Below, in pieces: positions 17,895-32,783 of a stretch of DNA of 44,296 bases. The translations under genes and the position numbers were made by a program. The stretch is from Stagnimonas sp. (GTDB taxonomy: Bacteria > Pseudomonadota > Gammaproteobacteria > Nevskiales > Nevskiaceae): the NCBI GenBank assembly GCA_030652575.1, contig JAUSQI010000104.1, positions 1 to 44,296 of the forward strand. The letters are read 5' to 3'. The notes below the pieces were generated by a model. That model was not told the origin of the DNA. It was given only the letters and a program-made list of their open reading frames with translations, and made no database searches. How positions within the stretch are numbered: the stretch's first letter is position 1; each line of letters starts with the position of its first letter.

Positions 17895-19001
17895 CTACTG
17901 CGCAGTGAGCCAGGACACCACGGGCCGCCCCTGGGCCTTGCAGACATAAGCCTGCCCGAGCCGCACCAGATGGAAGGCACAGGACAACACCGTCCACCAG
18001 GCGAGTGCCAGCAAGCCCCAGTCGGGCCTGCCCACGCACAGCGCCGCCAGCAGGATCACCCAGTTGGGATTGCGCCGCGCGGTGATGAGCCGGAACTGCG
18101 AGTCGAGCTTGCGCCAGACGTGGATGTGCATCTTGAAGCCGCTGATGAACGCGCCCTCGATCATTCGCTGCACCACGTAGCCGCCGACGATGCCGATGAG
18201 CGCGATCCACACCGTCGTGGCGGGCAGCGGCGTGCCGTAGCTCGCCAGCCCCGCAGCCCAGGCCCACCACCAGATCGGCGGATGGATGAGGTCGATGCCG
18301 TGATCGTAGATATTGCCCCAGGCCGAGGAGGTGATGGTGCAGCGGGCGAGTTTGCCGTCCACCGTGTCGAGCACCATGCTCACCAAGCCAGTGATGAGTC
18401 CGAGCCAGTAGTGCCCCTGATAGAAAGCGACGCCGGCGGTGATGCAGAAGGCGAGCCCGATGGTGGTGACCATGTTCGGCGAAATGCCCAGCTTGGCTGC
18501 GATGCGCGTGAGCACCAGCGCCCATTCGGGCCACAGGTATTTGGTCAGCACATCGGTGACGCCCTTGTAGGCGCCGAAGTAGCTGGCGCGCTCCAACGAC
18601 CTAAGCGTCTGCGGCGTGAGGAAATCCACGAAGGGCTGCTCGCGCTTGCGCAGCACCGGGTCTTCGATGGTGCCGGCGGTTTCGGCGGCAATGACTTGCA
18701 GGGTGCTCTCACCCAGTGGCTTGCCGTCGCGGATGGCACGGCCGACGGCCGCATGCTCCGCAGCCGAGCGCACATGCGCGAGCACGGGTATGCCCTGCCG
18801 CGTCAGCACGGTGCCCGGCAGACCGACGAGATGGGCGAACCAGGCCGGGTCGAACGCAAAGGTCGCGTTGGCGATCAGCTCGGTATGTGCATCGGCCGGC
18901 TCGATCGAAACCTTGCGCGCGGCGGCAATGCGGGCGATGCGCTCTGCGCCGGTAAGGCCCCAGAGCTGGGTCGGGTTATCACCCATGATTTTCAGACGCA
19001 T
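17895..19001 (-). CDS. CDP-alcohol phosphatidyltransferase with extra N-terminal domain
   Basis: A 368-residue membrane enzyme with the full CDP-OH-P signature D-x2-D-G-x2-A-R-x8-G-x3-D-x3-D: D212, D215, G216, A219, R220, G229, D233 and D237. Several hydrophobic segments from about 180 onward form the membrane core. The first 115 or so residues are extra compared with phosphatidylglycerophosphate- or inositol-phosphate-synthase-size members. The connecting stretch VLRKREQPFVDFLTP and GISPNMVTTIG resembles fused nucleotidyltransferase/CDP-alcohol proteins such as IPCT-DIPPS. The N-terminal domain here lacks a GxGTR loop, so any nucleotidyltransferase activity is probably lost. A separate nucleotidyltransferase lies just upstream. 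ATG 19001 is used; ATG 18986 is possible. It should join a CDP-activated lipid or alcohol to its partner in the inner membrane; substrates are unknown. Confidence 0.82.
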   Translation of the reverse strand: MRLKIMGDNPTQLWGLTGAERIARIAAARKVSIEPADAHTELIANATFAFDPAWFAHLVGLPGTVLTRQGIPVLAHVRSAAEHAAVGRAIRDGKPLGESTLQVIAAETAGTIEDPVLRKREQPFVDFLTPQTLRSLERASYFGAYKGVTDVLTKYLWPEWALVLTRIAAKLGISPNMVTTIGLAFCITAGVAFYQGHYWLGLITGLVSMVLDTVDGKLARCTITSSAWGNIYDHGIDLIHPPIWWWAWAAGLASYGTPLPATTVWIALIGIVGGYVVQRMIEGAFISGFKMHIHVWRKLDSQFRLITARRNPNWVILLAALCVGRPDWGLLALAWWTVLSCAFHLVRLGQAYVCKAQGRPVVSWLTAQ

Positions 19002-19031: not shown

Positions 19032-19820
19032 TCAACGTGTGGATGGATTGTTCAACAGCCGTTCCACCAACTCCAGATCCGCCATCTTGTCGACATCGAT
19101 TGCGGCCTGGCCAAAGGGCATCTCGACGACGGCAGCACGCACGCCGCCTGCCAGTGCGCCCAGCCGCGCGAGTGCCGCGCCGAGCGTGAGCTGGCCGAAC
19201 CGGTAGCGCAGGGCATAGCTGAAACCCAGCAGCCCGAGCATCTTCAGGGGCTGTTTGCGCAGCGCCTCCACTTGCACCCACAGCGCCGTCAATTGGGCAG
19301 CGCGCGGCGTGGCGAAATGGAACAGGTTGCAGCCGGAGTAATGGCCGTCGGCAAAGCGCAGGAAAGTGCGCTTGGTGTCGGGTGCTGCGGCCATCACCAC
19401 GTCGCTGCGGGCGAGGGCGACGGTTGCATCCGCATCGCGCGGCTGGTGCCGCAGGAAGTGGCTCACCCACTCTGATCTCAGCAGCGCATGGTCGGCGGTG
19501 GTGACGAGCATGGGCGTGCCGAAGTAGGCGAGTGCAGCACTCACACTGCGACTCGGGCTGCCCTGAGCCGCAAAGAGTTCGAGCGGCTTGCCGCCGCAGG
19601 CCGCATCGAGGCCGGGCAGGGCGCGCACCAGGTCGGGTGCTTCGATGCAGACGATCAGCCTCGCCACTTCCGGTGTGGCGGCAAGGGCGGCGATCACCCG
19701 CAGCAGCATCGGCGTGCCGTCGACCGGGATCAGCGCCTTGTGAAGGGCGCCGGTCGCGACCGCCATCGGGTCTCCGGGGCCGCGGGAACCGGCGAGGATG
19801 AGTACGGAAAGCCCGCTCAC
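19032..19820 (-). CDS. MobA-like NTP transferase family protein
   Basis: A 262-residue protein starting SGLSVLILAGSRGPGDP and continuing HKALIPVDGTPMLLRVIAAL, the opening of MobA/GlmU-fold nucleotidyltransferases, with LVTTADHALLRSEW near residue 105 providing the metal-binding Asp region. The GTG at 19820 is chosen because it forms a GTGA overlap with the upstream ceramide synthase gene and begins the fold; the open frame further upstream lies inside that gene. Directly followed by the CDP-alcohol transferase (30 bp gap), it probably makes the CDP- or NDP-activated head-group donor for that enzyme. Substrate not determined. Confidence 0.8.
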   Translation of the reverse strand: MSGLSVLILAGSRGPGDPMAVATGALHKALIPVDGTPMLLRVIAALAATPEVARLIVCIEAPDLVRALPGLDAACGGKPLELFAAQGSPSRSVSAALAYFGTPMLVTTADHALLRSEWVSHFLRHQPRDADATVALARSDVVMAAAPDTKRTFLRFADGHYSGCNLFHFATPRAAQLTALWVQVEALRKQPLKMLGLLGFSYALRYRFGQLTLGAALARLGALAGGVRAAVVEMPFGQAAIDVDKMADLELVERLLNNPSTR

Positions 19821-20953
19821 GACAAGGATTTCTCGTAAAGACGATAGGTCTTGTAGGGCGCCGCGCCAAAGTGTTCGCAAAAGTGGCGCATGGGCAGATT
19901 GTCTTCGAGCACCCAGCTCAGCTCGACTTTCTCGTAGCCGAGTTTCAGCGCCTCGCGACGCATGGCGTCGATGATGAGAAAGGGCATGGCGGCACCGACG
20001 AAGGTGTTGGCGAACTTGCGCTTCACGCCCATCAGCGGCACACGGCAGGTCTTCACACGCTTCACTTTCAGGCGATAGAGCAGCCTGGCCCAGCCGAGCG
20101 GCAGCAGCTTGCCGTCGAGGCCTACCAGCGCTTCGTTGAGATTGGGCAGGCAAACGCCGAACGCCGCCGGCTCGCCGTCGATATCGGCCAGCCATACCAG
20201 GCGCGGATCCAGGATGGGCTTGAGCGCCTTGGCGAGATGGTCTGTGTCGGCTGTAGTGAGCGGCGCGAAGCGCCAGTTGTCCATCCAGGCCTGGTTGAAG
20301 ATGTCGGTGATGTCGTCGATGTCCTTGCGGTACTGCTTGAAGCTCAGCGTGCGCAGGGTGAGGCCCTTGGGCAGCGTACGCTTGAGCAGCACTTGCGCAG
20401 CACGCGGCATCGGATCGGCGATGTGGCTCAGGTAGGCGTAGATGTCTTTCGCCTTCGTGTAGCCCGCGCCCTCGACGCGACGGCCCACGTAGGCTTGGTC
20501 GTGACCCATCAGCAGCATCGGCGGGGTATCGAAGCCGTCCACCAGCAGGCCTGCTTCTTCGTTGATGCCGAGATTGAAGGGGCCGATCACTTGCGTCATG
20601 CCGCGTGCTTTCAGCCAGGCTTCGGCGGTGGCGAAAAGTGCCGCGAAAATGGTGGCATCGTCTTCCGCGGCGATCAGCCCGAAGTAGCCGGTCATGTCGC
20701 CTTTTTGCACATTGCTGGCTTCGATCTGCGCGCTGATGCGGCCTACATCGCGGCCGTCTTTCACGGCAAGCCAGAACTGCACCTCGGTGTGGTCGAACAG
20801 CGGGTTGTGCTTGGGCGAGAACGACTCGGCGCGCTCCATGTCGAGCGGCGTGATCCAGTGCGGATCGTGCGCGCTCAAGGTGGCCGGCACGCGGATGAAG
20901 CGCTGCATCAGCGCCTTGCCTTCGACAGGGATGATTTGCAGTTCAGAGATCAT
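19817..20953 (-). CDS. bcerS: Bacterial ceramide synthase (bCerS-type GNAT-fold acyltransferase)
   Basis: A 378-residue protein of the GNAT-like family that includes the bacterial ceramide synthase of Caulobacter crescentus and that databases often misname dATP pyrophosphohydrolase or N-acetyltransferase. Features: opening with VPATLSAHDPHWITPLDMER, FWLAVKDGRDVGRISAQIEA, VIGPFNLGINEEAGLLVDGF, LMGHDQAYVGRRVEGAGYTK, and a C-terminal GNAT-type segment ALKLGYEKVELSWVLEDN. It should N-acylate the long-chain base to form dihydroceramide. The assignment rests on family resemblance plus co-location with spt, a dedicated ACP, cerR and an acyl-AMP ligase. The ATG at 20953 overlaps the lptG stop (ATGA); the stop overlaps the next GTG. 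Confidence 0.8.
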   Translation of the reverse strand: MISELQIIPVEGKALMQRFIRVPATLSAHDPHWITPLDMERAESFSPKHNPLFDHTEVQFWLAVKDGRDVGRISAQIEASNVQKGDMTGYFGLIAAEDDATIFAALFATAEAWLKARGMTQVIGPFNLGINEEAGLLVDGFDTPPMLLMGHDQAYVGRRVEGAGYTKAKDIYAYLSHIADPMPRAAQVLLKRTLPKGLTLRTLSFKQYRKDIDDITDIFNQAWMDNWRFAPLTTADTDHLAKALKPILDPRLVWLADIDGEPAAFGVCLPNLNEALVGLDGKLLPLGWARLLYRLKVKRVKTCRVPLMGVKRKFANTFVGAAMPFLIIDAMRREALKLGYEKVELSWVLEDNLPMRHFCEHFGAAPYKTYRLYEKSLS

Positions 20954-22035
20954 TGATGCCGGTCCAGTCGAAGCAGAAAAACGAGGCCCAAAAGGCCGAA
21001 AGCCAGCGGTGAAATCCAGGCGGCGGCGAGCGGTTCGATCAGCCCGGCTTCGCCCAGCGCGCTGCACAGGCCATGCGTGAGCAGAAACAGCAGGCCGGTG
21101 CCGAGCGAAACCAGCATGGGTGCGCCTTTGGCGCCACGCGTGAGCGCCACGGCCACCGGCGTGGCGAGTAGCAGCATCACCAGTGCCATCACCGGATCGG
21201 CGAGGGCCTTTTGCACGCGGGTGCGGTAGAAGGCTGGCGTCTTGCTGCCGGTGTTTTCACCCGTCAGCACCGCAGCCGCAAGGCCGCCGGACACGTAAGG
21301 CTCGGCAGCCGAAAGACGCTGCACGTCGCTGGGGCGCAGCGCGGTTTCCCAGGCCAGCTGTGCGACAGGTGCAGCGGTTTTGGCGGTGGCGAAATCGGTG
21401 ATGGCGGCGTCGGTGAGGGTCCAGTGCCGGTCGGCATAGCGGGCGGTGGTGGCGAGCGTGCGCGTCAACAGATGGCCGTTGTCGTCGCGGCGGAAAATAC
21501 GCACGCCTTCGAGCACGCGGCCATCGGGATGCACGCGTGCCACGCCGATGACGACGCCACTGCTCTTGAACCACAGCAGTTCGGTATCGGGCGTGTCGTC
21601 CTTGGGTGGTGGCAGCGAGGCCCACCAGTTGGTCAGCGCGCGCTGGGTGCTCGGCACCACCACTTCGGCCAGCAGCCATTGCGTGGCGGCGATCAGCAGC
21701 ACGGCGGGCAGCAGGATGAGCACGACGCGGCGAAACGGCAGGCCCGCAGCGCGCATGGCGATCACCTCGTGCTGTTTGGCGAGCGTGTTGAAGGCGAACA
21801 CCGCGCCGATGAGTGCGGCGAGCGGCAACGCCTGCAGCAGCAATGTGGGCGCGCGCAGGCTGATGTAGTGGCCGACGCCGCCGATGCCCTGGCCGCGCGC
21901 CATGATCTCGGTGGTGGCATCGAGCAGATCGAGGATTTGCAGCAGGCCGCCGAGTGCGATCAGCACCGAGAGCACGCGCAGTGCCAGCAATCGCAGCAGG
22001 TAGCGCGGCAGCGGGCCGAGCAGCAAGGCCCTCAT
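20950..22035 (-). CDS. lptG: LptG-family permease of an envelope lipid exporter
   Basis: A 361-residue inner-membrane protein of the YjgP/YjgQ (LptF/LptG) family: one set of membrane segments at the N-terminus (LLALRVLSVLIALGGLLQIL, PLAALIGAVFAFNTLAK), a periplasmic beta-jellyroll domain at about 130-270, and a second membrane set at the C-terminus. HEVIAMRAAGLPFRRV is the LptB-contact coupling helix. Length matches E. coli LptG (360). It pairs with LptF and would need LptB and LptC, which are not in the window. The gene is coupled by ATGA overlaps to lptF before it and to the ceramide synthase after it, which raises the possibility that the pair serves sphingolipid export. Confidence 0.9.
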   Translation of the reverse strand: MRALLLGPLPRYLLRLLALRVLSVLIALGGLLQILDLLDATTEIMARGQGIGGVGHYISLRAPTLLLQALPLAALIGAVFAFNTLAKQHEVIAMRAAGLPFRRVVLILLPAVLLIAATQWLLAEVVVPSTQRALTNWWASLPPPKDDTPDTELLWFKSSGVVIGVARVHPDGRVLEGVRIFRRDDNGHLLTRTLATTARYADRHWTLTDAAITDFATAKTAAPVAQLAWETALRPSDVQRLSAAEPYVSGGLAAAVLTGENTGSKTPAFYRTRVQKALADPVMALVMLLLATPVAVALTRGAKGAPMLVSLGTGLLFLLTHGLCSALGEAGLIEPLAAAWISPLAFGLLGLVFLLRLDRHQ

Positions 22036-23231
22036 GGGCGTGCCGCCTTGGGCTTGGGTCGCAGGGCGTCGCCGAGTCGGCTGGTGAAGCCATCGAGGGC
22101 GGCCAGCAGACGCGACACCGGGTTGTCGCCGGGGCGTTCGAGGCTCTGGCTGTAGATCCAGACGCTGAGGGCGGCGAACACCAGCGTGGGGGTCCAGACG
22201 CCGACCAGCGCGGGCACCTTGCCGGACTCCGACAGGCTCTCGCCGAGTTGCAGCGTGTGGTTGAACAGCAGCATCAGGACGGCGGCGACGATCATGCTGC
22301 CGGTGCGTTCGCCCCGCTTGGCCGCCATGCCCAGCGGCACCGCGAGCAGCGGCAGCAGCAGCAGCGAGACGATGCGCGCGAGCCGCCCCTGCAACTCGCC
22401 CGCGATCTTGTCGGTGTTGGGGGCGACCACGCCTTCGGTGCCGACACCACCGCGCCATAACTCGGGCAGTGTCAGCTCGCGCTCGTTGCGACCACGCGGG
22501 CCGAAGTCCGGGGCGCCGGAGGAAAACTCGGTGGACGTGCTCAGTCGATCGAATTGCGCGAACAGCCAGTTGCCGGTCTTCTCGTGGCGCAGGTGCTCGC
22601 CGTGGTCGAGGGTCAGCGTCAGCTGCGTGCCGTCGGCGCTGGGTTGCAGCACGCCGGTTTCGCTGGTGGTGACTTGGTCCTGGCCATTGACGAGCCGGTG
22701 CACGAATACGCGCTGCAACTGCCGGCCGCTCTCATCCACGCCATCGGCGGTGAGCGTGTAGCCGCGGCCGGGGCTGACGAAGGTGCCGGCTTGCAGACGG
22801 GCATCCCAGCCGGCGTTGAGCGCGGCATTGAGCACCGCGCGGTAGGTGTAGCGCGCATACGGTTGCAGGTAACCGAACAGGCCGATGCTGAGCACAGACA
22901 GCAGCAAGCCAGTGATCAGAAAAGGCTTGGTGAGGCGGCTGATGGAGAGCCCGCCGGCGAGATAGGCATCCAGCTCGTTGTCGTCCGAGAGCTTGGCGAT
23001 CACCAGAAAAAGCGCGACGAAGAACGCCGCGGGCAGCGCCAGGCCGAGGTAGTGCGGCACCAGACAGGCGATGAGCTTGGCCACGGCCGGTAGCGCCTGG
23101 TTGTTCTGCGCGAGGATGTCGAACAGCCTGAGCAGCCGCTCCAGCAGCAGCGCGATCAGCACGGTGCCCAGGCACACCAGCAGGCTGCCGCCGAGCTGGC
23201 GCAACAGATAGCGGTCGAGAATCGAAGGCAT
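22032..23231 (-). CDS. lptF: LptF-family permease of an envelope lipid exporter
   Basis: A 399-residue partner of LptG. It starts ILDRYLLRQLGGSLLVCLGT; membrane segments flank a large periplasmic domain at about 115-275. The coupling-helix region reads LSDDNELDAYLAGGLSISRL and the preceding membrane segment PHYLGLALPAAFFVALF. From memory these look closer to alphaproteobacterial LptF than to the E. coli protein (TESEITVMHACGLS at the same place). It is about 30 residues longer than E. coli LptF. The ATG at 23231 is chosen; the open frame continues upstream but has no family similarity. It heads the leftward lptF-lptG-bcerS operon. In many gammaproteobacteria lptFG stand next to pepA; here they do not. 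Confidence 0.9.
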   Translation of the reverse strand: MPSILDRYLLRQLGGSLLVCLGTVLIALLLERLLRLFDILAQNNQALPAVAKLIACLVPHYLGLALPAAFFVALFLVIAKLSDDNELDAYLAGGLSISRLTKPFLITGLLLSVLSIGLFGYLQPYARYTYRAVLNAALNAGWDARLQAGTFVSPGRGYTLTADGVDESGRQLQRVFVHRLVNGQDQVTTSETGVLQPSADGTQLTLTLDHGEHLRHEKTGNWLFAQFDRLSTSTEFSSGAPDFGPRGRNERELTLPELWRGGVGTEGVVAPNTDKIAGELQGRLARIVSLLLLPLLAVPLGMAAKRGERTGSMIVAAVLMLLFNHTLQLGESLSESGKVPALVGVWTPTLVFAALSVWIYSQSLERPGDNPVSRLLAALDGFTSRLGDALRPKPKAARP

Positions 23232-23437: not shown

Positions 23438-23935
23438 ATGTTGATGGACGCAAGAGTAACGCGCGGCATCTGGCGGCGCAGCGTGCTGATGCTCGGCCTG
23501 CTGTCGGGCGCCATGCCAGTCGTGCATGCCGCAGAGCCGGCGCCTACCTGCGCGGTGACCAATGCGGAGCGGCATCTTTCGGTGCGCGTCACCGGCATGC
23601 GCTCCGACAAGGGCAACCTCACCGTCACGGTGTATCCGGACGACGCCGACCGCTTCCTGTCCAGAGGCGGCAAGCTGTTGCGCCTGCGGGTGTCGATTGT
23701 GCTGCCGATGACCGAGGCCTGTTTCGTGCTGCCGGCAGCCGGCAACTATGCGGTGGCGGTGTATCACGACGCCAACGACGATCACGACTTCAATCGCAAT
23801 TTCGTTGGCCTGCCGGCCGAGGGTTACGGGTTCTCCAACAACCCGGTGACGAAGCTCGGGTTGCCGACGTTCAAGGAAGTGCGTTTCGACACCCAGCCCG
23901 GCAACAACCCGATCTACATCAAGCTCACTTACTGA
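23438..23935 (+). CDS. Exported DUF2141-family protein
   Basis: A 165-residue secreted protein. Residues of about 1-31 form a signal peptide (two arginines, hydrophobic LMLGLLSGAMPVVHA). The mature part matches DUF2141: LSVRVTGMRSDKGNLTVTVY, then LPAAGNYAVAVYHDANDDHD, FNRNFVGLPAEGYGFSNNP and a final FKEVRFD. The Asp/Asn-rich loop could bind metal. Function of the family is unknown. It lies between the two halves of the lipid locus, divergent from lptF, and converges on the metallophosphoesterase with an 11-base overlap. The ATG at 23438 has a GGAGAG ribosome binding site six bases upstream; an ATG two codons later is also possible. Confidence 0.82.
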   Translation: MLMDARVTRGIWRRSVLMLGLLSGAMPVVHAAEPAPTCAVTNAERHLSVRVTGMRSDKGNLTVTVYPDDADRFLSRGGKLLRLRVSIVLPMTEACFVLPAAGNYAVAVYHDANDDHDFNRNFVGLPAEGYGFSNNPVTKLGLPTFKEVRFDTQPGNNPIYIKLTY

Positions 23936-24830
23936 TCTGCAACGTGTAGCGCGCCGCCGTGGCAAAGCCCTGCTGCGTGTCATCGAGCACGCGCACGGTC
24001 ACCGTCAGCCGCCAGCCGTTTTCTGCCTTGGCGATCTCCAGCAGATGCCAGCGCGCGCCCTCGTCCCTGGGGTTGGGTATGGCCGAGATCGACGGCAGGC
24101 CGAAGCTCGCGATCAAGCCCCGTGGGCCGGGCAGCGGGTCGAAGCGTGCGTCGCGGGAATGGCCGTGCAATACGAGTTCAGCGCCGTGCGCTGCAAGCAC
24201 AGCACGCAGGCCAGCGCGATCGGTCAGCACCTTGCGCGCGGGCACCACCCCGTCGGCGGGCGGGTGGTGCAGCATGACAATGCGGAACAGGTCCTGCGTG
24301 CCGAGTTGCTGGAGTTGCGCGGCCAGCCATTGCAATTGCGCGGGCCCCAGCGTGCCGCTGGCAAAGCCGGGGGCGGTGGGCACTGCGCTCGATAATCCCA
24401 GCAGTGCGACGCCGTTGCGCACTCTCACGTAGGGCAGCAGTGAGCCGCCCTCTGCATCGCCCTGCATTTGTGGCTGCCAGTGCGCCCAGCCGTCTATGTG
24501 CGAGACCGGCACCAAGGCATCGTGGTTGCCGGGGATGACCGAGACATCCGCAGGCGCGCCCAGCGTCGCGAACCAGGCAGCGGCAGCGCGAAACTCCACC
24601 GGCAGCGAGAAATTGGTGACGTCGCCGGTGATGGCCAGATGATCCGGCGCATGCGCGTGGATGTCGGCGATGGCGGCGGCCAGCACCTCGGGCTTTTGCA
24701 GATGTTTGCGGCCGCGCGCCCACGAGAGCCGGCTCATCGCGCGCTTGCCCAGCCATTCGCGCGGTTCGACGTCATCCAGCGCCACGGTCAGGTGCGGGTC
24801 CGAGAGATGGGCGAGGCGCAGCAAGGTCAT
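23925..24830 (-). CDS. Calcineurin-like metallophosphoesterase
   Basis: A 301-residue member of the metallophosphoesterase superfamily with all the dimetal motifs: HLSDPHL (residues 8-14), AITGDVTNF near 69, IPGNHDALV near 100, a later LHHPP and GHSRDARFD near 247. Related enzymes cleave cyclic nucleotides, nucleotide-linked lipids or sugar-nucleotide pyrophosphates. The setting suggests a phosphatase or pyrophosphatase step in lipid head-group formation, but this is inference. No signal peptide, so cytoplasmic. The ATG at 24830 starts the fold; an in-frame start at 24902 adds 24 residues with no family character. Confidence 0.82.
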   Translation of the reverse strand: MTLLRLAHLSDPHLTVALDDVEPREWLGKRAMSRLSWARGRKHLQKPEVLAAAIADIHAHAPDHLAITGDVTNFSLPVEFRAAAAWFATLGAPADVSVIPGNHDALVPVSHIDGWAHWQPQMQGDAEGGSLLPYVRVRNGVALLGLSSAVPTAPGFASGTLGPAQLQWLAAQLQQLGTQDLFRIVMLHHPPADGVVPARKVLTDRAGLRAVLAAHGAELVLHGHSRDARFDPLPGPRGLIASFGLPSISAIPNPRDEGARWHLLEIAKAENGWRLTVTVRVLDDTQQGFATAARYTLQISK

Positions 24831-24953
24831 GGATAATCGCGGACTGATTTTTCGATCTGGCGGCGATGATAAGCCGCTGGATCGCCCGCACGGATTCGTC
24901 ATGTCTCAAACAGTCATCACCCTTTGCGGCATCCACGCCCTGATGCGCGCGCC

Positions 24954-25922
24954 GTGACCGCCGTGATCCGCGCCGGGGTCATCCGCAACCCCAAAAGCCA
25001 GCGCAACAGGGCCGGGCCGCTGAAGGACCGCGACGTGCCGCCGGAGGTCACGATCGCGCTGCCTTTCACCACCGAGGCACTGGCCGAGACCGTGCGGGAG
25101 TTTGCCGCGCAGGGCATCCGCCATCTCATGGTGGATGGCGGCGACGGCACGCTGCGCGATGTGCTGGGCGCGCTGCCCGCAGCCTATGGCAGCGACTGGC
25201 CGACGATTGCGCTGTGCGCCTCCGGCAACACCAATCTGGCCGTCGCGGATGTGGGCGGTTTCAAGCGTGGTGAGCGTGCGGTGTTGCACTGGTATGAGTC
25301 CTTGAGCGGCGCGCATCCCACGCGAATCTCCGAGCGTCGGCCCATCGAAGTGTGCTGGCCCGATGGTTCGCACGCGCCGGTGTATGGCTTCTTTGTCGGC
25401 TGCGCCAACTACGCGCGCGCGGTGGCGATGGCGACCGGCGGGCTGCGCGAGAAGGGGTTTTTCCACGGCTGGGCGGTCTCGGCCACCATCGCCGGTGCCG
25501 CCTGGCAGGTGCTGGCCGGCGGCAAGGACAACGACTGGCAGCGCGGCAGCACGGTCACCGTCGCCATCGATGACGCCGCGCCAGTCAGCACGCCGCGCTT
25601 CGTGCTGCTGGCCACCAGTCTCGACAAGCTGCTCATGGGCCTGTGGCCGTTCTGGTCCGCCAGTGATGCCAAAGGCGCTTTGCACTGGCTCGATATCGAC
25701 GCCCCCGCGCCGCGTTTTGGCCGGGTGCTGCCGACACTGCTGCGGGGCAAGCCCAAGTCCTGGGCGCTGGCGAGCGGGGCTTACCGCAGTGGCCGTGCCG
25801 CGCAAATCACCCTGACGATGGCCGAGCCGCTCATCGTCGACGGCGAGCCTTTTGCCCCGGATGCGCAGGGCCAGTTGCTGCTGCAAGCCGGGCCGCTGGT
25901 GCGGTTCCATGCACCCGCCTGA
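24954..25922 (+). CDS. DAGK-type lipid kinase (candidate ceramide kinase)
   Basis: A 322-residue protein of the diacylglycerol/sphingosine-kinase fold. It opens with VIRNPKSQRN (nucleotide-binding start) and has VDGGDGTLRDVL at about 60-71, the GGDGT catalytic loop, then ALCASGNTNLAVADVGG, matching the conserved SGNTN-type loop. The middle reads FFVGCANYARAVAMATGG, and a C-terminal beta-rich region ends in MAEPLIVDGEPFAP, as in DAGK-fold lipid kinases. Gene order kinase, nucleotidyltransferase-like gene, then the spt group suggests ceramide as substrate, in parallel with the ceramide kinase encoded near spt in Caulobacter. GTG at 24954 is chosen; a TTG at 24924 is possible. Confidence 0.8.
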   Translation: MTAVIRAGVIRNPKSQRNRAGPLKDRDVPPEVTIALPFTTEALAETVREFAAQGIRHLMVDGGDGTLRDVLGALPAAYGSDWPTIALCASGNTNLAVADVGGFKRGERAVLHWYESLSGAHPTRISERRPIEVCWPDGSHAPVYGFFVGCANYARAVAMATGGLREKGFFHGWAVSATIAGAAWQVLAGGKDNDWQRGSTVTVAIDDAAPVSTPRFVLLATSLDKLLMGLWPFWSASDAKGALHWLDIDAPAPRFGRVLPTLLRGKPKSWALASGAYRSGRAAQITLTMAEPLIVDGEPFAPDAQGQLLLQAGPLVRFHAPA

Positions 25923-25932
25923 AGCGGCCGCA

Positions 25933-26865
25933 ATGGCCACGCCACTCGATGCGCTGATCGCCGCCGAGCTGCGCGAAGCGGTGCCACCGGCCGTCACGGC
26001 CTTTGCCGCGCACCTCGCCGCGCAAGGGCAGGGCGCGCTGGCGGTGCTGTTCTACGGCAGCAATCTGCGCACGGGCGATCTCGAAGGCGTGCTGGATTTC
26101 TACATCCTGTTGTCGAGTTTGCGCGACTGGCATCCCTCGGCGCTGGCCGCCTTCGGCAACCATCTGCTGCCGCCCAATGTCGGGTATCACGAATGGGTTT
26201 TCGAAGGCCGCACGCTGCGCGCGAAAGTGGCCGTGCTGCGTCTCGATCAGTTCCAGCAGGGCGTGGCCGGTGCAGGGCTCGATACCACGCTGTGGGCGCG
26301 CTTCGCACAACCCGCGCGGCTGATCTGGTCGCGTGATGGCGCGGCCGCTGCCGCAGCGGGTGCGGCGGTTGCCAAGGCGGTCGTCACGGCCAGTCGCTGG
26401 GCAGCCCTGCTCGGGCCAGAACAGGGGCAGGCCAAGGACTACTGGGACGCCGTGTTCGCACGCACCTACGCGGCGGAGCTGCGGGTGGAGAAATCCAGCC
26501 GCGCGGCAAGTCTCGCGGCACACGATCCGCAGCGATATGAGCAGGCGCTGTGCCTGGGCTGGCAGATGGCAGGTGCCGGCTTTGTGCAGGACGCTTCAGG
26601 CCAGCTCAAGCCGGATGCCAGTGCCGAGGAGCGCGCCAAGGCCGAACACGCCTGGGCGCGCCGTGCGCGCTGGGGCAAGCCGCTGAATCTGCTGCGGCTC
26701 ACCAAGAGCGTGTTCACGTTTGCGGGCGGTGCCGACTACGTGGCGTGGAAGGTCGAGCGTCACAGCGGCTATCGCATTCCGCTGACGGACTGGCAGCGGC
26801 GGCATCCGCTGCTGGCAGCGCCCAAGGTCTTGTGGACGCTCTGGCGTCGCGGCGTGCTGCGCTAA
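25933..26865 (+). CDS. Tam41-like phosphatidate cytidylyltransferase family protein
   Basis: A 310-residue protein that resembles mitochondrial Tam41, the CDP-diacylglycerol synthase with a nucleotidyltransferase fold that is unrelated to CdsA. Matching landmarks in order: FYGSNL (residues 40-45; YGSG in Tam41), LDFYILLSSLRDWH (54-67; LDFxFxVxxxxxWH in Tam41), LLPPNVGYHEWV (78-89), GRTLRAKVAVL (92-102, with a conserved Lys), then LWARFAQPARLIW. It should transfer CMP from CTP to a lipid phosphate. Next to a lipid kinase and opposite spt, its substrate may be ceramide-1-phosphate. ATG 25933 leaves a 10-base gap after the kinase; ATG 25909 would overlap it by 14 bases. No membrane helix is evident. 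Confidence 0.68.
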   Translation: MATPLDALIAAELREAVPPAVTAFAAHLAAQGQGALAVLFYGSNLRTGDLEGVLDFYILLSSLRDWHPSALAAFGNHLLPPNVGYHEWVFEGRTLRAKVAVLRLDQFQQGVAGAGLDTTLWARFAQPARLIWSRDGAAAAAAGAAVAKAVVTASRWAALLGPEQGQAKDYWDAVFARTYAAELRVEKSSRAASLAAHDPQRYEQALCLGWQMAGAGFVQDASGQLKPDASAEERAKAEHAWARRARWGKPLNLLRLTKSVFTFAGGADYVAWKVERHSGYRIPLTDWQRRHPLLAAPKVLWTLWRRGVLR

Positions 26866-26910: not shown

Positions 26911-28200
26911 TTACCGAGCGCCGACGGCGATGGCGCGATCCAGTTCGGCGTTGGCCGGGAACACGCCCGAACCCGTTGCCGGCTTGGCGCGGCGCATCGG
27001 CGGCAGTGCGGGCAGCACGCCCAGCTGACGGCCGACGGTCTCGAACAACTGCACCACGCGGTCGATCTGCTCGAAGGTGTGCGCAGCGCTGACGCTGGAA
27101 CGCAGCAGCGGTGCGTTGGTCGGCGTGGCGGGCGGCAAGGCGAGGTTGAGGTAGACGCCGCCTTCGAGCAGGCGGTTCCAGAAGGTCACCGCCAGCATCG
27201 GGTCTTCGAGCGACACCGAAACGATCGGATTGGGCTGCGGGCCGAGCTTGAAGCCAAGATCTTTCAAGCCGTTGTAGAGGCGGTTGCCGTTGGCGTGCAG
27301 CTTGGTCCGCAGCTCAGGCGACTCTTGCAGGCGGCGCAGTGCAGTGATGGTCGAAGTCATCACCGACGGCGGCAACGAAGCGGTGAACATGTAGGGGCGG
27401 CAACCGACGCGCAGTACATCGAAACCTTCGAGATCGGAGACGCAGAACCCACCGACGCTGCCGAGGCTCTTCGAGAAGGTGCCGATCACGAAATCGACAT
27501 CGGCTTCCACACCGGCGGATTCGGACAGGCCGCGGCCGTTATCACCGAGCACGCCGAGCGAATGCGCCTCGTCGACCATCAGCCAGGCGCCCATTTCGCG
27601 TTTGACGGCGGCAATCTCCTTGAGCGGCGCGGCGTCGCCCAGCATCGAGTAGATACCTTCGACCACCACCAGCTTCGCACCCGGTTCGCCGGAAAGGCGC
27701 TTGAGGCGCTTGGCGAGGTCATCCGGATCGTTGTGGCGGAAGCGCACCACTTCGGCATGGCCGAGGCGTGCGCCGTCGTAGATCGAGGCGTGGCTGTCGG
27801 AGTCGAGCAACAGATAGTCGCCTTTGCCGGCCAGCGTCGACAGCATGCCGAGATTGGCCTGGTAGCCGGTCGAAAACACCATGCAGTGCTTGCGATTGAA
27901 GTATTTGGCCAAATCGGTTTCGAGCTGGCGGTGGCCGCCGTAGCTGCCGTTGGCAATGCGCGAGCCGGTGGTGCCGGTGCCCTGCGCCTTGAGCACTTCG
28001 ACGGAGGCGTCGATGCAGTCCTGGTCGAAGGTGAGGCCCAGATAATTATTAGTGCCGAGCAGGATGGTGCGGCGGCCGTTGTGCAAGCCCTCGGTGGGCG
28101 AGAACATCTGCTCGAACACCATTTCAAAGGGGTTCTGGCCGACTGCACGCAGTTGGTCGTAGGTCTGCCGTAAAGGGGCAAACTTATTGAGGATGCTCAC
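26911..28200 (-). CDS. spt: Serine palmitoyltransferase (alpha-oxoamine synthase family)
   Basis: A 429-residue PLP enzyme that condenses serine with an acyl thioester to 3-oxosphinganine, the committed step of sphingolipid synthesis. PLP-site features are present: NNYLGL near 51, FSTGYQANLGML (109-120), DSDSHASIYDG (H137), VDEAHSLGVLG (D210, H213) and the PLP lysine K244 in TFSKSLGSVGG. Close relatives are Bacteroidetes/Sphingomonas-type Spt, KBL and BioF. The adjoining ACP, reductase and acyl-AMP ligase argue strongly for Spt over BioF or KBL. The GTG at 28200 forms a GTGA overlap with the ACP stop and begins the family similarity; the frame upstream lies within the ACP gene. It ends at a bidirectional terminator. 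Confidence 0.9.
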   Translation of the reverse strand: MSILNKFAPLRQTYDQLRAVGQNPFEMVFEQMFSPTEGLHNGRRTILLGTNNYLGLTFDQDCIDASVEVLKAQGTGTTGSRIANGSYGGHRQLETDLAKYFNRKHCMVFSTGYQANLGMLSTLAGKGDYLLLDSDSHASIYDGARLGHAEVVRFRHNDPDDLAKRLKRLSGEPGAKLVVVEGIYSMLGDAAPLKEIAAVKREMGAWLMVDEAHSLGVLGDNGRGLSESAGVEADVDFVIGTFSKSLGSVGGFCVSDLEGFDVLRVGCRPYMFTASLPPSVMTSTITALRRLQESPELRTKLHANGNRLYNGLKDLGFKLGPQPNPIVSVSLEDPMLAVTFWNRLLEGGVYLNLALPPATPTNAPLLRSSVSAAHTFEQIDRVVQLFETVGRQLGVLPALPPMRRAKPATGSGVFPANAELDRAIAVGAR

Positions 28201-28469
28201 GATTTCAATTTCCTTGCGCGCAATTGATCCACCACACTCACCAAATCGTCGAGGGTTTCGACCTCGGCTACTTTTTCCAGCGAAATGACGATGTCGAAAC
28301 GGTCTTCCAGCGTCAGCATGAAGTCCATCACGGCCAATGAGTCGAGGTTCAAGTCGCGCATGATGTGGGTGGTCCCGGACACCTGTGCGGATGCCGGCAC
28401 GATCTGCCGCAGTCCTTGAATAATCTGTTCTCGGGTATCGCTCAAACTCTCGTTCATCCCTGCACTCAT
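28197..28469 (-). CDS. Dedicated acyl carrier protein for Spt
   Basis: A 90-residue acyl carrier protein with the 4'-phosphopantetheine site Ser44 in LNLDSLAVMDFML and acidic helix II (LEDRFDIVISLEK). It differs from the general fatty-acid AcpP and is translationally coupled to spt (GTGA overlap), as in other proteobacterial sphingolipid loci where the ACP carries the acyl chain to Spt. The ATG at 28469 is used; ATG 28457 is an alternative. Confidence 0.9.
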   Translation of the reverse strand: MSAGMNESLSDTREQIIQGLRQIVPASAQVSGTTHIMRDLNLDSLAVMDFMLTLEDRFDIVISLEKVAEVETLDDLVSVVDQLRARKLKS

Positions 28470-28641
28470 ATTGCTGCAACAACAACCATTTACGCGCGTC
28501 CCTGAAACCGCGTGCGCGGAATTGTAAGCGGTTGGTCACAAAAAGTTCTTGGAAAAATCACTCAGCTGCCACAGCCGTAGGCAACGGTGCTGGGTCAACT
28601 GGGTGCTCTCGACCAATCAAAAATTGTGCCGCCCCGAGGTT
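28470..28641. other. Intergenic gap between cerR and the ACP-spt pair
   Basis: A 172-base AT-richer gap. On the minus strand TACAAT (complement of 28521-28526) lies about 50 bases before the ACP start and could be a -10 element, but I see no convincing -35 at the right distance. A small palindrome, CAAT-caaaa-ATTG, lies near 28614-28626. The gap suggests that ACP-spt may have its own promoter separate from the ligase-cerR unit. Confidence 0.3.
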
Positions 28642-29616
28642 TTACAACCAGCCCGCCTCAAAGTACCAGCTCGCCGTGCTGCTGAAGCCCGATTCGAGAC
28701 TGTAGCGTGGAATCGCCGGCGCGCGGAACAGCCCGGGTTCAGGCGCGCTCCAGTCTTCGTGCAGCAGTTCACGCAACTTGCCGGGGTTGAACATGGCGGC
28801 TTGCCCGGCCAGCTTGGCCAGCGTGCCGGCGGCGTAGCCCACCCCACTCAACAGAGGGCGAGGCACCTGGACGAAACGCGGTTTGCGGTTGCCGACCGCA
28901 TGGGCCGCCGCCGCCAGCACCTGCTGCCAGCTGTAGCCGGCGGGTTGCGCATCGGCGATGCCTTGCACCGTGCCGGAGGGGCCGGCATCCAGACGGGCGA
29001 TGAAGGCACTGACGGCGTCTTCGACATGAATCACCGCCAGCCGGGCGCTGGGTCGCCCCAGCAGCGGGATCAAGGGCTGGCGGGCGAGTTGGAAAAACGC
29101 CAGCGTCTCGCGGTCGCCCGGCCCATACACCGCAGGTGGCCGCAGGATGCTGAACTGTTGCGGACCCAATGCAGCGATCACCGCCTCTTCGCCGGCGCGC
29201 TTGCTGGCGCAGTAGCCCGAGAGCTGCGGCTCGCGCGCGGCGAGGCTGGAGATATGCAGGAAATGCGCGTCCGGTGCCGCATGCTGCACCGCTGCGGCGA
29301 TGGCGGCGGTGCCATCGCGATTGACGCGCATGAAGCCCTGCGCGTCACGCGCCTTGATCGCCCCGGCGAGATGCAGCACGGCATCGGCGCCGCGCACCAG
29401 CCGTTGCAATGCTGCGGGGTCTTCGAGGCTGCCCAGCACGACGTCGGGATGCGCATCCCGCCATAGCGCGTGTGCAGGATCGCTGCGGGCCAGCACCCGT
29501 ACCTGCCAGCCCAGGCTGGCAAGACGGGCTACGGCATGGCGGCCGACAAAGCCCGTCGCGCCGGTGACCGCGATGGTGCGCACTTCGCCAAGCGTGAGTT
29601 TTCCCGATGCACGCAC
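28642..29616 (-). CDS. cerR: CerR-type NAD-dependent epimerase/dehydratase family reductase
   Basis: A 324-residue extended short-chain dehydrogenase. The NAD(P)-binding loop GATGFVGRH lies at residues 19-27. The catalytic triad is present: Ser in HISSLAARE (123-124), Tyr135 and Lys139 in GYCASKRAGEE. The pattern ILRPPAVYGPGDRETL is typical of the epimerase branch. In Caulobacter the epimerase-like gene beside spt, cerR, reduces the 3-oxo group during ceramide synthesis, and the same role is inferred here from family and neighbourhood. It starts 6 bases after the acyl-AMP ligase stop, so the two are co-transcribed. Confidence 0.85.
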   Translation of the reverse strand: MRASGKLTLGEVRTIAVTGATGFVGRHAVARLASLGWQVRVLARSDPAHALWRDAHPDVVLGSLEDPAALQRLVRGADAVLHLAGAIKARDAQGFMRVNRDGTAAIAAAVQHAAPDAHFLHISSLAAREPQLSGYCASKRAGEEAVIAALGPQQFSILRPPAVYGPGDRETLAFFQLARQPLIPLLGRPSARLAVIHVEDAVSAFIARLDAGPSGTVQGIADAQPAGYSWQQVLAAAAHAVGNRKPRFVQVPRPLLSGVGYAAGTLAKLAGQAAMFNPGKLRELLHEDWSAPEPGLFRAPAIPRYSLESGFSSTASWYFEAGWL

Positions 29617-29622
29617 GAGGTT

Positions 29623-31353
29623 TCAGGCAGCAGGCACGGGCAGCGCGAAGGCACCCTTGAGAAACAGCTGCTTGGCCTTGGCGCGACTGAGCTTGCCGGA
29701 GGACGTGCGCGGCAAGGCCCGTGGCGGCACCGGCACCACATCGGTCTCCACGCCATGACGCAGGCGCAGCACGCCAGCGACTTCCTTGCGCAGTGCTTCG
29801 AGTGCTGCCGCGTCGGCGGGGCGGTGTTCCACCAGTACCACGATGCGCTCGCCATTGCCGTCATCGATGGCGACGGCGGCGACATCCCCGCTGCGCAGGG
29901 CAGCGATTTCGTGCTCCGCGGTCCATTCCAGATCCTGCGGCCAGATATTGCGGCCGTTGATGATGATGAGGTCCTTGGCGCGGCCGGTGACCACAATCTG
30001 GCTTTCGGTGAGATAGCCGAGATCGCCGGTGTCGAGCCAGCCGTCTTCAGACAGCACTGCGGCAGTGGCCTCCGGCTGGCCAAAGTAGCTGTGCATCATG
30101 CTCGGGCCGCGTGCGAAGAGCCGCCCGACTTGGCGTGAGCCGCGCAGCTCGCCGCTCTCGCCGCGCACTTCGACGGTGTGCAGCGGCAGGGCAGGGCCAC
30201 AGAGTACGAAGTCGCGCGCGCGGGGGGTGTCGGCGGCGGCGATAACCGCACGCTGGTCGCGTTCGAGCACATCCATATCCAGCTTTTCGACACGGATGCC
30301 TTGCTGCGGCGGTGAGAAGCTCAGCGCCAGCGCGGTTTCGGCCATGCCGTAGCTCGGTACGAAGGCGCTGGCCTTGAAACCCTGCGGTGCGAAGCGGCTG
30401 GCAAAGTTGGCCAATGGCTCGGGGCGCACCATGTCGCCACCGATGCCGGCGCCGCGCCAGCGCGAGAGATCCAGCGCCTCGATGGACGCCGTCTGCGCGC
30501 GCCGTGCGCACAGCTCGTAGCCGAAGGTGGGGCTGTAGCTGAGCGTGCCGCCGTTGCGGGTAATGAGTTCGAGCCACAGCAACGGGCGGCGGGCGAAGTC
30601 GCGGGTGGCGAACATGTCTACCGAGATCTGGCAGACCAGCGGGGTGAGCAAGAAGCCCACCAGACCCATGTCGTGATACAGCGGCAGCCAGGAGGTGCAG
30701 CGATCGGCAGGCCCGATCTGCAAGCCGTCGCGGGCGATGCCGCGCACATTGGCCATCAAGGCCTTTTGGGTGACCGCGACGCCGAGGGGAAAGCGCGTGC
30801 TGCCGGACGAGAACTGCAAATAGCTGAAGTCATCCTCGCCTGCGATCGGCAGCGTCACCGTACTGCTGGTCGGCGGCAATGCGGCCAGCGTACCGACGTA
30901 TTTCAACGCCAGCACATCGGCGGCCTGCGCCAGCCATTCGGTGAGCGCCGTGGGTGCAATGGCGGCCGAGACATCGGCGATTTCCAGCATGTGGCGGATG
31001 TGCGAGACGTAGGCCTCTCGGCCACCAAAGGCGGCGGGTAGAGGCAACGCGGTGGGCACCAATCCAGCGTACTGGCAGGCGAAGAAGGCGCGTGCAAAGT
31101 CGCCATCGGTATCGGCGATGAGCGCGACCCGGTCGCCGGGTTTCAGGCCCTGGGCGAGAAACTGTTGCGCCAATACCAGTGCCTGCTCGCGCAGCACCCG
31201 GTAACCCAGGCATTCGAGCAGTTCGCCCTTGCCGGAATAGAAGTTGATGCCGGTATCACCCTGTGCCGCATAGTCGAGTGCAAGCGGCAGCGTGGCGAAA
31301 TCGGCCAGTCGGTAGTGGGGTAGTCCGCTTGAAGTCGGAGTAGGCGCCTGCAT
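29623..31353 (-). CDS. Fatty acyl-AMP ligase (acyl-ACP synthetase of the sphingolipid locus)
   Basis: A 576-residue member of the ANL superfamily, FAAL branch. Motifs: YLQFSSGSTRFPLGVAVTQ (about 178-196, ATP loop), CTSWLPLYHDMGLVG, FVPSYGMAETALALSFSP, GWLDTGDLGYL, and GRAKDLIIINGRNIWPQDLE, the FAAL-type hinge. The C-terminal LPRTSSGKLSRAKAKQLF carries the adenylation Lys. FAALs activate fatty acids as acyl-AMP and load them on carrier proteins instead of CoA. The partner here is presumably the nearby ACP, which then feeds Spt. The ATG at 31353 begins the protein; cerR follows after 6 bases. Confidence 0.9.
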   Translation of the reverse strand: MQAPTPTSSGLPHYRLADFATLPLALDYAAQGDTGINFYSGKGELLECLGYRVLREQALVLAQQFLAQGLKPGDRVALIADTDGDFARAFFACQYAGLVPTALPLPAAFGGREAYVSHIRHMLEIADVSAAIAPTALTEWLAQAADVLALKYVGTLAALPPTSSTVTLPIAGEDDFSYLQFSSGSTRFPLGVAVTQKALMANVRGIARDGLQIGPADRCTSWLPLYHDMGLVGFLLTPLVCQISVDMFATRDFARRPLLWLELITRNGGTLSYSPTFGYELCARRAQTASIEALDLSRWRGAGIGGDMVRPEPLANFASRFAPQGFKASAFVPSYGMAETALALSFSPPQQGIRVEKLDMDVLERDQRAVIAAADTPRARDFVLCGPALPLHTVEVRGESGELRGSRQVGRLFARGPSMMHSYFGQPEATAAVLSEDGWLDTGDLGYLTESQIVVTGRAKDLIIINGRNIWPQDLEWTAEHEIAALRSGDVAAVAIDDGNGERIVVLVEHRPADAAALEALRKEVAGVLRLRHGVETDVVPVPPRALPRTSSGKLSRAKAKQLFLKGAFALPVPAA

Positions 31354-31427: not shown

Positions 31428-32783
31428 TCATACCGCACGGTGTTTCTGGCCAAACCAGCGTCGCACCAACCAGACCTGGCCGAGCAACATCAGTGCCGCG
31501 CCGATCACGGCGGCGACACCGGCGCCATGCAGCGCCTGAGTCACGATCATCCAGTAGAGCAGCGGAATGTAAAAAACGGTCACGACGAGTCGCAACCAGA
31601 ATGCTGCGGTGGCACTGCCGGTGGACATCAGCAGCGGCTCCAGTGGCACCGCCCAGATGCTGATGACCGCACCCGTCAGCAGCCAGAGCATCACCGGCTT
31701 GGCGGCAATGAACTCCGGCCCGATCAGCACCGACAGCAGCGCGCCGCCGAAAAGTGCGACGAGCACCAGCAAGCCCGTTGCCACCCCACCCGCAGCCAGC
31801 GCCAGTTGCCGGACGAGCTTGCGCAGCGCGGCGCGATCCGGGTTCATCGCCAGGCGTGCGAGTTCCGGGTAGAGCGCGGGCACGATCAGCTTGGCGGGCT
31901 TGGCCACGGCGTCGGCCAGCTGTTTGGCGATGCGATAGAGCGCTGCATCCGTGGCGCCCAACAGCGCGCCGACCATGAGCGTGCCCAGGTGGGTGAAGGC
32001 GAGACCCAGCGTGGTGTTGAGATTGGTCGACCACACGAAGGGCCAGATGCCGGGCATGCCCTCTGTCCAAGTGCCGGCGAAACGCCAGCGAAAGCCGCTC
32101 AGAGCGTGCTTTTTTTGCAGCATCCAGGCCGCTGCGCCGAACAGGAACAGGAAGGCAACGAACCGGGCCAAGAACCAGATCATCAAAAAAACATGCAGCC
32201 CCGCGCCAAGCCACCAAGCCAGCCCGGCACCGATCAACCGGATCAGGGATTCGAGGCTGCTTTCTGCGGCCATCAGGTCAAAGCGATTCACCAGACGCAG
32301 CGCACCGATTGGCGTGGCACTGACGTTGAAGAAGATCGAAAACGCATACAGCGCCACGGCGGCTTGCTCACTGGCGGGCCAGCCCAGCCCACCGCCGATG
32401 AGCAGCACGCCCGCGAGTGCAACCACGATGCCGGTCAGGCCGCTGATGCCATCCAGCAACAGACTGAATCGCAGTACACGATGAAACGGGGCAAAGCGTT
32501 TTTCAGTGAATGGAGCGGTGCCGTAGTTGAGCAGAGCTTGCCAAGACTGGAACTTGGCGATCTCGCCCACGGTTTGTATGTAGGCGTGGATCAGCACGAA
32601 CACACCGAAGACTTCAACCCCCAGCGCCCTCGCTGCCAGCGCGACGGTCGCCAGCCCCATCACGGCGTTCACGGCCTTGCCGCCCAGCAGAATGCCGGCG
32701 TTGCTGAGGATTTGATGGAAGGAGCTGCGCGGTTTGGCAGCAGCGGGCGGGACGAGCGGTGGTTGTGGCGTCACTGCACGCAT
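31428..32783 (-). CDS. Polytopic flippase of the polysaccharide/lipid flippase (MVF) superfamily
   Basis: A 451-residue membrane protein with about 12-14 hydrophobic segments. It starts after a 20-residue Pro/Ala-rich lead: ILSNAGILLGGKAVNAVMGL, then VALAARALGVEVFGVFVLIH, as in Wzx-like lipopolysaccharide biosynthesis flippases. YRIAKQLADAVAKPAKLIVPALYPELARLA near residue 285-315 is the conserved mid-protein loop of the family. It should move a lipid-linked sugar or a glycolipid across the inner membrane. It stands just upstream of the acyl-AMP ligase (74-base gap) in the same direction, so a role with the sphingolipid product is plausible but not shown. Confidence 0.8.
   Translation of the reverse strand: MRAVTPQPPLVPPAAAKPRSSFHQILSNAGILLGGKAVNAVMGLATVALAARALGVEVFGVFVLIHAYIQTVGEIAKFQSWQALLNYGTAPFTEKRFAPFHRVLRFSLLLDGISGLTGIVVALAGVLLIGGGLGWPASEQAAVALYAFSIFFNVSATPIGALRLVNRFDLMAAESSLESLIRLIGAGLAWWLGAGLHVFLMIWFLARFVAFLFLFGAAAWMLQKKHALSGFRWRFAGTWTEGMPGIWPFVWSTNLNTTLGLAFTHLGTLMVGALLGATDAALYRIAKQLADAVAKPAKLIVPALYPELARLAMNPDRAALRKLVRQLALAAGGVATGLLVLVALFGGALLSVLIGPEFIAAKPVMLWLLTGAVISIWAVPLEPLLMSTGSATAAFWLRLVVTVFYIPLLYWMIVTQALHGAGVAAVIGAALMLLGQVWLVRRWFGQKHRAV

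Follow-up and report, generated by a model that had tools for sequence, protein, structure and literature searches.

A Tam41-fold protein encoded beside a bacterial ceramide kinase as the probable CTP:ceramide-1-phosphate cytidylyltransferase of sphingolipid loci

The ceramide (di)phosphoglycerate pathway of Caulobacter is the closest described counterpart of the genes analysed here, which lie on a 44,296-nucleotide stretch of DNA from Stagnimonas sp. (contig JAUSQI010000104.1; "the window" below means this whole stretch) and centre on the neighbouring genes cpgB and cpgC. Caulobacter genetics, as reported, show that cpgB and cpgC are needed for ceramide phosphoglycerate (CPG) and that cpgA and cpgD are needed solely for the diphosphoglycerate lipid CPG2 (PMC12275187, PMC11324152). 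CpgC is required for CPG, which a cpgC mutant loses, and reintroducing cpgB (CC_1160) alone into a cpgA/cpgB double mutant yields CPG (PMC11324152). CpgB has ceramide kinase activity in vitro and phosphorylates diacylglycerol to a comparable degree, and deletion of cpgB is reported to leave phosphatidate levels unaltered (PMC10331486). The product of CpgD is cytidine diphosphate (CDP)-glycerate (PMC12275187, PMC13228409), and CPG2 supports the viability of Caulobacter without lipopolysaccharide (PMC12275187). The step assigned to CpgC is drawn in a 2025 paper and a 2026 preprint as conversion of ceramide-1-phosphate into CPG by a mechanism that their schemes leave unidentified (PMC12275187, PMC13228409). 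Olea-Ozuna et al. (2024) pointed to an InterPro CDP-diacylglycerol synthase domain in CpgC (CC_1161) and proposed that ceramide-1-phosphate gives a nucleoside diphosphate (NDP)-activated ceramide, to which an unknown enzyme then adds glycerate or phosphoglycerate; they considered direct attachment energetically not very favourable (PMC11324152).

The core of the window locus consists of three genes:

24954..25922, plus strand: CpgB-like ceramide kinase, 322 amino acids; GTG start, Pfam DAGK_cat, GGDGT motif, 36% identical to its positional counterpart in C. vibrioides.
25933..26865, plus strand: CpgC, Tam41-fold nucleotidyltransferase and probable CTP:ceramide-1-phosphate cytidylyltransferase, 310 amino acids; AlphaFold2 model, 47% identity to C. 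vibrioides CpgC, invariant residues.
26911..28200, minus strand: Spt, serine palmitoyltransferase; Pfam Aminotran_1_2, 64% identical to its C. vibrioides match, convergent with cpgC.

The two plus-strand genes are co-directional, 10 nt apart and convergent with spt, although the exact start of cpgC is uncertain as further in-frame start codons lie upstream. A preliminary description, made from the sequence alone, had already recognised a DAGK-fold kinase followed by a Tam41-like protein opposite spt, and both reading frames are where it placed them. Caulobacter crescentus has the same gene pair in the same order (CC_1160-CC_1161, ccna_01218-01219), also with a convergent spt, and, to judge from sequence and gene order, the window carries the genes of the Caulobacter pathway. 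The window differs in that a TagF-like gene overlaps cpgD and in that cpgA lies on the opposite strand about 6 kb from cpgB, whereas the Caulobacter cpgA is beside cpgB; moreover, the window system is known from its genes and not from its lipids. The system is thus a known one. The preliminary description knew of no such bacterial pathway, but the pathway and both genes have been published, and activation of ceramide by CC_1161 was suggested in general form in 2024. That proposal concerns the same protein and the same activation of ceramide-1-phosphate; it differs in leaving the nucleotide open, and the InterPro entry it cites may be the Tam41 one (PMC11324152). The word Tam41 is absent from the main text of four Caulobacter papers, as is Mmp37 from the main text of PMC11324152. 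In the literature searched, the term CDP-ceramide was not found and no paper joined Tam41, ceramide and Caulobacter. What our analysis adds is the Tam41 fold of CpgC and its co-occurrence pattern across genomes.

The kinase matches Pfam DAGK_cat at E 5.5e-6 (26.4 bits against a cut-off of 23.6), carries GGDGT and, by eye, lacks the CxxxCxxC of eukaryotic CERK. These are the features described for bacterial ceramide kinases, namely a GGDG motif and no CxxxCxxC (PMC10331486). Together with its 36% identity to the proven ceramide kinase CpgB of Caulobacter, they mark it, on sequence grounds, as the CpgB ortholog, in agreement with the earlier supposition that this kinase makes ceramide-1-phosphate. 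The second protein is likewise orthologous to CpgC (CC_1161): it is 47% identical to the C. vibrioides protein over 302 columns, nearly its full length.

Searched alone, the window CpgC gave no match in Pfam, NCBIfam, PADLOC or the PDB sequences, and the relationship to Tam41 emerged from its predicted structure. The AlphaFold2 model, built from an alignment of eight sequences, has a predicted local distance difference test score of 88.5 and a predicted template modelling score of 0.87. In a Foldseek search of the PDB, its top five matches were all Tam41 (E 3.5e-9 to 8.3e-8, probability 1.00). Against the Firmicutes Tam41 7ecd (CTP-Mg, 272 residues) the model gave a VIA Z of 18.5 over 230 aligned residues with a root-mean-square deviation of 3.3, and against two mitochondrial entries, which are from S. 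pombe (PMC7018664), Z values of 15.8 and 15.2; the Tam41 matches span 217-230 residues, and CTP is bound in two of the three entries. The next-best fold, that of aminoglycoside nucleotidyltransferases, reached a Z of 9.3 over 112 residues in an alignment confined to residues 16-152, whereas the Tam41 match covers residues 15-263. The model has the Tam41 layout, in which the nucleotidyltransferase domain precedes another domain that closes over the CTP site. Identity across the VIA match is 10-12%, and we regard the resemblance, as modelled, as real; the preliminary description had named comparison with Tam41 as a check, and the fold match is present.

Sequence comparisons gave partial agreement. 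We scanned GTDB genomes for CpgC relatives, which returned at least 583, and retained the best 80 loci (4 to 21 kb each); the window protein and these 80 relatives make up an alignment of 81 sequences, and a wider set of 57 takes in more distant relatives. Two of the 57 match the Pfam Tam41 model (Tam41_Mmp37, PF09139; best E 3.6e-11). Of these two, L004 was picked out when 26 family members were scanned singly, in part (43.4 bits against a cut-off of 24). L004 comes from a genome of the window's class (G134), where it stands in a cpgA-cpgB-cpgC run near spt, and a PDB search with it retrieves the mitochondrial (S. pombe) Tam41 at E 2e-4. Through L004, the columns of CpgC K98, R123 and P127 fall on the Tam41 KYG, GR and KP stretches at the level of sequence alignment. 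A profile of the 57 members run against PDB sequences gave four weak matches, none to Tam41 (best a nucleotidyltransferase domain, E 0.081), and a PF09139 search of 94 genomes of the class returned zero matches but was uninformative, since 14 controls were blank as well. In locus L151, which is an entire 5.4-kb contig of a 62%-complete genome (G005), a diverged CpgC relative (about 31% identity) and a diverged Spt (40% identity) are 1.1 kb apart, and the two perhaps represent another branch.

Twelve residues never vary in the 81 sequences (Y41, G42, S43, R46, D55, Y57, R96, K98, W121, R123, Q126 and P127), and P81, Y85 and E87 are conserved at 99-100%. S43, Y57 and P127 remain nearly invariant in the wider set, and R46 has one exception in a further alignment (A3). 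Among the Tam41 landmarks listed in the preliminary description, YGS, the D and Y of LDFY and Lys98 are in the invariant set, while 'DWH' is conserved at less than 95% and the His of NVGYH is variable. The likeness to Tam41/TAMM41, the mitochondrial phosphatidate cytidylyltransferase, and to its bacterial relative 7ecd thus comprises the domain layout, a GS + D core seen by eye and, through L004, the Lys of the KYG stretch and the Arg of the GR stretch. CpgC is unlike Tam41 in its setting: it sits in Spt genomes beside a ceramide kinase, with a CdsA homologue already present.

To place CpgC in its genomic context, we used two overlapping draws, one of 369 genomes by class and one of 398 by phylum; related genomes within each draw are not independent of one another. 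A strong Spt was defined as E 1e-75 or better, a cut-off fixed after the scores were known (weakest Spt in a CpgC genome 3.3e-77, best second homologue 3.3e-69). CpgC was found in 20 of the 369 class-draw genomes, all 20 with a strong Spt, and in 27 of the 398 phylum-draw genomes, 26 of them with a strong Spt; in the remaining one, G716, a diverged Spt-like gene (187 bits) converges on cpgC. Conversely, CpgC was present in 20/24 strong-Spt genomes of the class draw and 26/36 of the phylum draw. Taken together, the draws contain 44 CpgC genomes, 43 with a strong Spt, and 57 strong-Spt genomes, 14 of which lack CpgC. No CpgC genome in either draw was without an Spt-like gene. Two refuting outcomes named in the preliminary description, a missing structural match to Tam41 and occurrence without spt, were thus looked for and not seen. 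Where both genes could be placed, they were within 25 kb of each other in 31/42 genomes and farther apart or on different contigs in the other 11.

The kinase follows the same pattern. With any match to the window kinase at E 0.001 counted as CpgB, which does not prove a ceramide kinase, CpgB was matched in 37/40 CpgC genomes versus 0/14 Spt genomes without CpgC, and in three of the four remaining CpgC genomes of the draws. Within Spt genomes, CpgB and CpgC therefore tend to occur jointly or to be missing jointly. A CdsA-type CTP transferase (PF01148) was found in 16/16 CpgC genomes tested, and so CDP-diacylglycerol should not depend on CpgC. The Spt genomes without a CpgC or CpgB match are G110, G249, G156 and G289 together with ten from the phylum draw, and they presumably decorate ceramide in another way; in two such Spt regions of 20 kb each (L211 of G156 and L212 of G408), which hold ceramide and permease genes, we found no match to CpgA, CpgB, CpgC, the phosphoesterase or CC_1153.

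Gene order among the relatives ties CpgC to the same partners. In the 80 cpgC loci, matches were obtained to CpgB in 73 (some weak), CC_1153 in 61, CpgA in 52, Spt in 45 and CpgD in 32. Where the CpgB match exceeded 60 bits and lay on the same strand as cpgC (67 loci), the distance from cpgB to the downstream cpgC was -60 to +150 nt in 61; the remaining six fell between -80 and +181 nt, and the two genes overlapped by 4 nt in 33 of the 67. Spt was convergent and no more than 400 nt from cpgC in 33 of the 45 Spt-bearing loci. In the Burkholderiales- and Panacagrimonas-type loci, cpgA is directly upstream of cpgC in 11/11. Seven of these (L018, L020, L029, L047, L049, L076 and L081) carry a further CpgA paralog next to CerS, bringing the CpgA-like genes to two or three per locus (in L018, at 3789-6230 on the minus strand and 8860-9990 and 16219-17520 on the plus strand). 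Ten of these 11 genomes have a lipid kinase 25-31% identical to that of the window, and G194 gave no match. We rejected the idea that these loci are without Spt and modify some other lipid, as Spt is present in all 11; Spt was matched in 16/16 genomes checked, with 48-51% identity in these 11. Two AasR-like genes adjoin Spt in eight Spt regions from genomes of this type.

We consider it probable that CpgC is a Tam41-type CTP:ceramide-1-phosphate cytidylyltransferase that makes CDP-ceramide. CpgB would phosphorylate ceramide to ceramide-1-phosphate, and CpgC would join this with CTP, forming CDP-ceramide and releasing pyrophosphate. Phosphoceramide would then be transferred to glycerate or phosphoglycerate, yielding CPG, by a CDP-alcohol phosphotransferase that is not CpgA or not CpgA alone, and CpgD and CpgA may add the second phosphoglycerate through CDP-glycerate, the activity of CpgD being known from the literature and the role of CpgA from genetics. 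Since CPG requires the kinase but not CpgD with its CDP-glycerate, the phosphate in CPG should derive from ceramide-1-phosphate, and ceramide should be the partner that is activated. The presence of CdsA and the Caulobacter mutants favour ceramide-1-phosphate as the substrate, and the identity of the kinase, the Tam41 fold, and the linkage and co-occurrence with Spt make CDP-ceramide the likely product. Several observations weigh against this assignment. The fold does not give the substrate; 55 of the 57 family members, including the window CpgC, have no Pfam Tam41 match; CpgC is absent from ten phylum-draw and four class-draw Spt genomes; no CpgB match was found in 3/40 CpgC genomes, nor in 2/20 in a second test; and genomes of the Burkholderiales type give weak kinase matches. 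Since CpgB also phosphorylates diacylglycerol in vitro, a branch through phosphatidate is conceivable, and for a CDP-ceramide transferase there are only candidates. That CpgC is instead a second, Tam41-type CDP-diacylglycerol synthase, linked to sphingolipids through the supply of CDP-diacylglycerol or through a promiscuous branch, would suit both the phosphatidate chemistry of Tam41 and the ability of CpgB to make phosphatidate in vitro. We hold it to be very improbable in view of the CdsA homologue in every CpgC genome tested, the occurrence of CpgC, in both draws, only in genomes with an Spt-like gene, the lack of a CpgB match in the 14 Spt genomes without CpgC, and the reported loss of CPG in the cpgC mutant and unchanged phosphatidate in the cpgB deletion. 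A Tam41 fold could also serve another reaction, such as use of a different nucleotide, activation of glycerate or direct condensation of ceramide-1-phosphate with glycerate. The published schemes, which take ceramide-1-phosphate to CPG through CpgC, leave room for this, as do the lack of a known separate CPG transferase and the persistence of CpgB-CpgC in genomes without CpgA. It is nevertheless unlikely: direct attachment was judged unfavourable by Olea-Ozuna et al., CpgD, the CDP-glycerate enzyme, is reported to be dispensable for CPG, and the best matches of the model are Tam41 structures, CTP being bound in two of three entries.

If CpgC does make CDP-ceramide, an enzyme must consume it, and the preliminary description chose the CDP-alcohol phosphotransferase of the same locus, which is indeed there:

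17895..19001, minus strand: CpgA-like CDP-alcohol phosphotransferase; Pfam CDP-OH_P_transf PF01066, E 6.3e-11.

The family of CpgA, its match in 52/80 cpgC loci and its position directly upstream of cpgC in all 11 Burkholderiales- and Panacagrimonas-type loci speak for that choice. Against it, CC_1160 alone is reported to restore CPG in the cpgA/cpgB double mutant, and CpgB-CpgC occur without a CpgA match in Acetobacter (G202), Gluconobacter (G203) and Qipengyuania (G205). The named consumer was probably wrong, and consumption of CDP-ceramide by CpgA of the same locus is quite improbable. In G202, G203 and G205 only two PF01066 proteins each were found, a PgsA over the cut-off and a PssA-like protein (93-98 bits against a cut-off of 107); C. 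vibrioides (G197) has only PgsA and CpgA, and the window genome (G000) has PgsA, PssA and CpgA. The genomes are assemblies, some of them fragmented, so that a gene could lie on an absent contig. PgsA is the sole PF01066 enzyme common to these five classified CpgB-CpgC genomes. The consumer may therefore be PgsA, as the shared candidate, or an enzyme of another family; among the matches listed, the further conserved neighbours of cpgC that could be the missing transferase were an acyl carrier protein and, mostly, likely shadow reading frames. A tentative proposal, which we think rather unlikely as a whole, is that CDP-ceramide is a true bacterial intermediate formed by a Tam41-type enzyme and consumed by housekeeping PgsA, with glycerate or phosphoglycerate in place of glycerol-3-phosphate.

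The remaining genes of the window locus, several of which are named from Caulobacter gene order, are as follows:

14864..15607, plus strand: CpgD-like phosphoglycerate cytidylyltransferase (nucleotidyltransferase); NCBIfam nucleotidyltransferase matches, all below cut-offs.
15604..16719, plus strand: TagF-like GT-B fold protein; AlphaFold2 model; 4-nt overlap with the end of cpgD.
19032..19830 (start approximate), minus strand: CC_1153-like nucleoside triphosphate transferase; Pfam NTP_transf_3; matches in 61/80 cpgC loci.
19817..20956, minus strand: CerS-like GNAT-type ceramide synthase; Pfam Acetyltransf_1; gene order as for CC_1154.
20950..23225, minus strand: two overlapping genes, presumed LptG2-/LptF2-type export permeases; matches in 50/80 and 52/80 cpgC loci.
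23925..24902, minus strand: metallophosphoesterase, CC_1158-like by gene order, divergent from cpgB; Pfam Metallophos; matches in 46/80 cpgC loci.
28190..28470 (limits approximate), minus strand: acyl carrier protein-like open reading frame (ORF) between spt and cerR; translation by eye; position of acpR in Caulobacter.
28642..29616, minus strand: CerR-like NAD-dependent reductase; Pfam Epimerase.
29623..31353, minus strand: AasR-like acyl-CoA/acyl carrier protein synthetase; Pfam AMP-binding.
31428..32783, minus strand: MOP-type flippase, named CC_1166-like from gene order; NCBIfam MOP flippase match weak and under the cut-off; matches in 35/80 cpgC loci.

The names LptG2 and LptF2 were taken from the Caulobacter gene order and not from a family search. 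ORFs related to the acyl carrier protein-like one occupy a comparable place in 37/80 cpgC loci. A small ORF at 23438-23935 on the plus strand, which we take to be of the DUF2141 family, has homologues in 36/80 loci. For the TagF-like protein (15604-16719) no Pfam match was found, and its model matched TagF at a VIA Z of 24.3, tied with UDP-N-acetylglucosamine 2-epimerases at 24.8. TagF is a teichoic acid polymerase, and the window protein is a candidate user of CDP-glycerate. Its homologue in C. vibrioides (L082) is at 16480-17607 on the minus strand, and by gene order the Caulobacter counterpart should be CC_1167, which has been termed probably unrelated in print, yet whose mutant cofitness with spt is given as 0.57.

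The Tam41 fold, the shared presence and absence with a ceramide kinase and the association with Spt give the CpgC step a specific and cheap test. If the assignment is true, it would supply a missing step of a lipid pathway described only recently, and a Tam41 relative would be operating outside phosphatidate chemistry. Should PgsA prove to be the consumer, the ordinary phospholipid headgroup machinery would also build sphingolipids. Sphingolipids would have their own CDP-lipid branch, parallel to that of CDP-diacylglycerol, if CpgC indeed makes CDP-ceramide.

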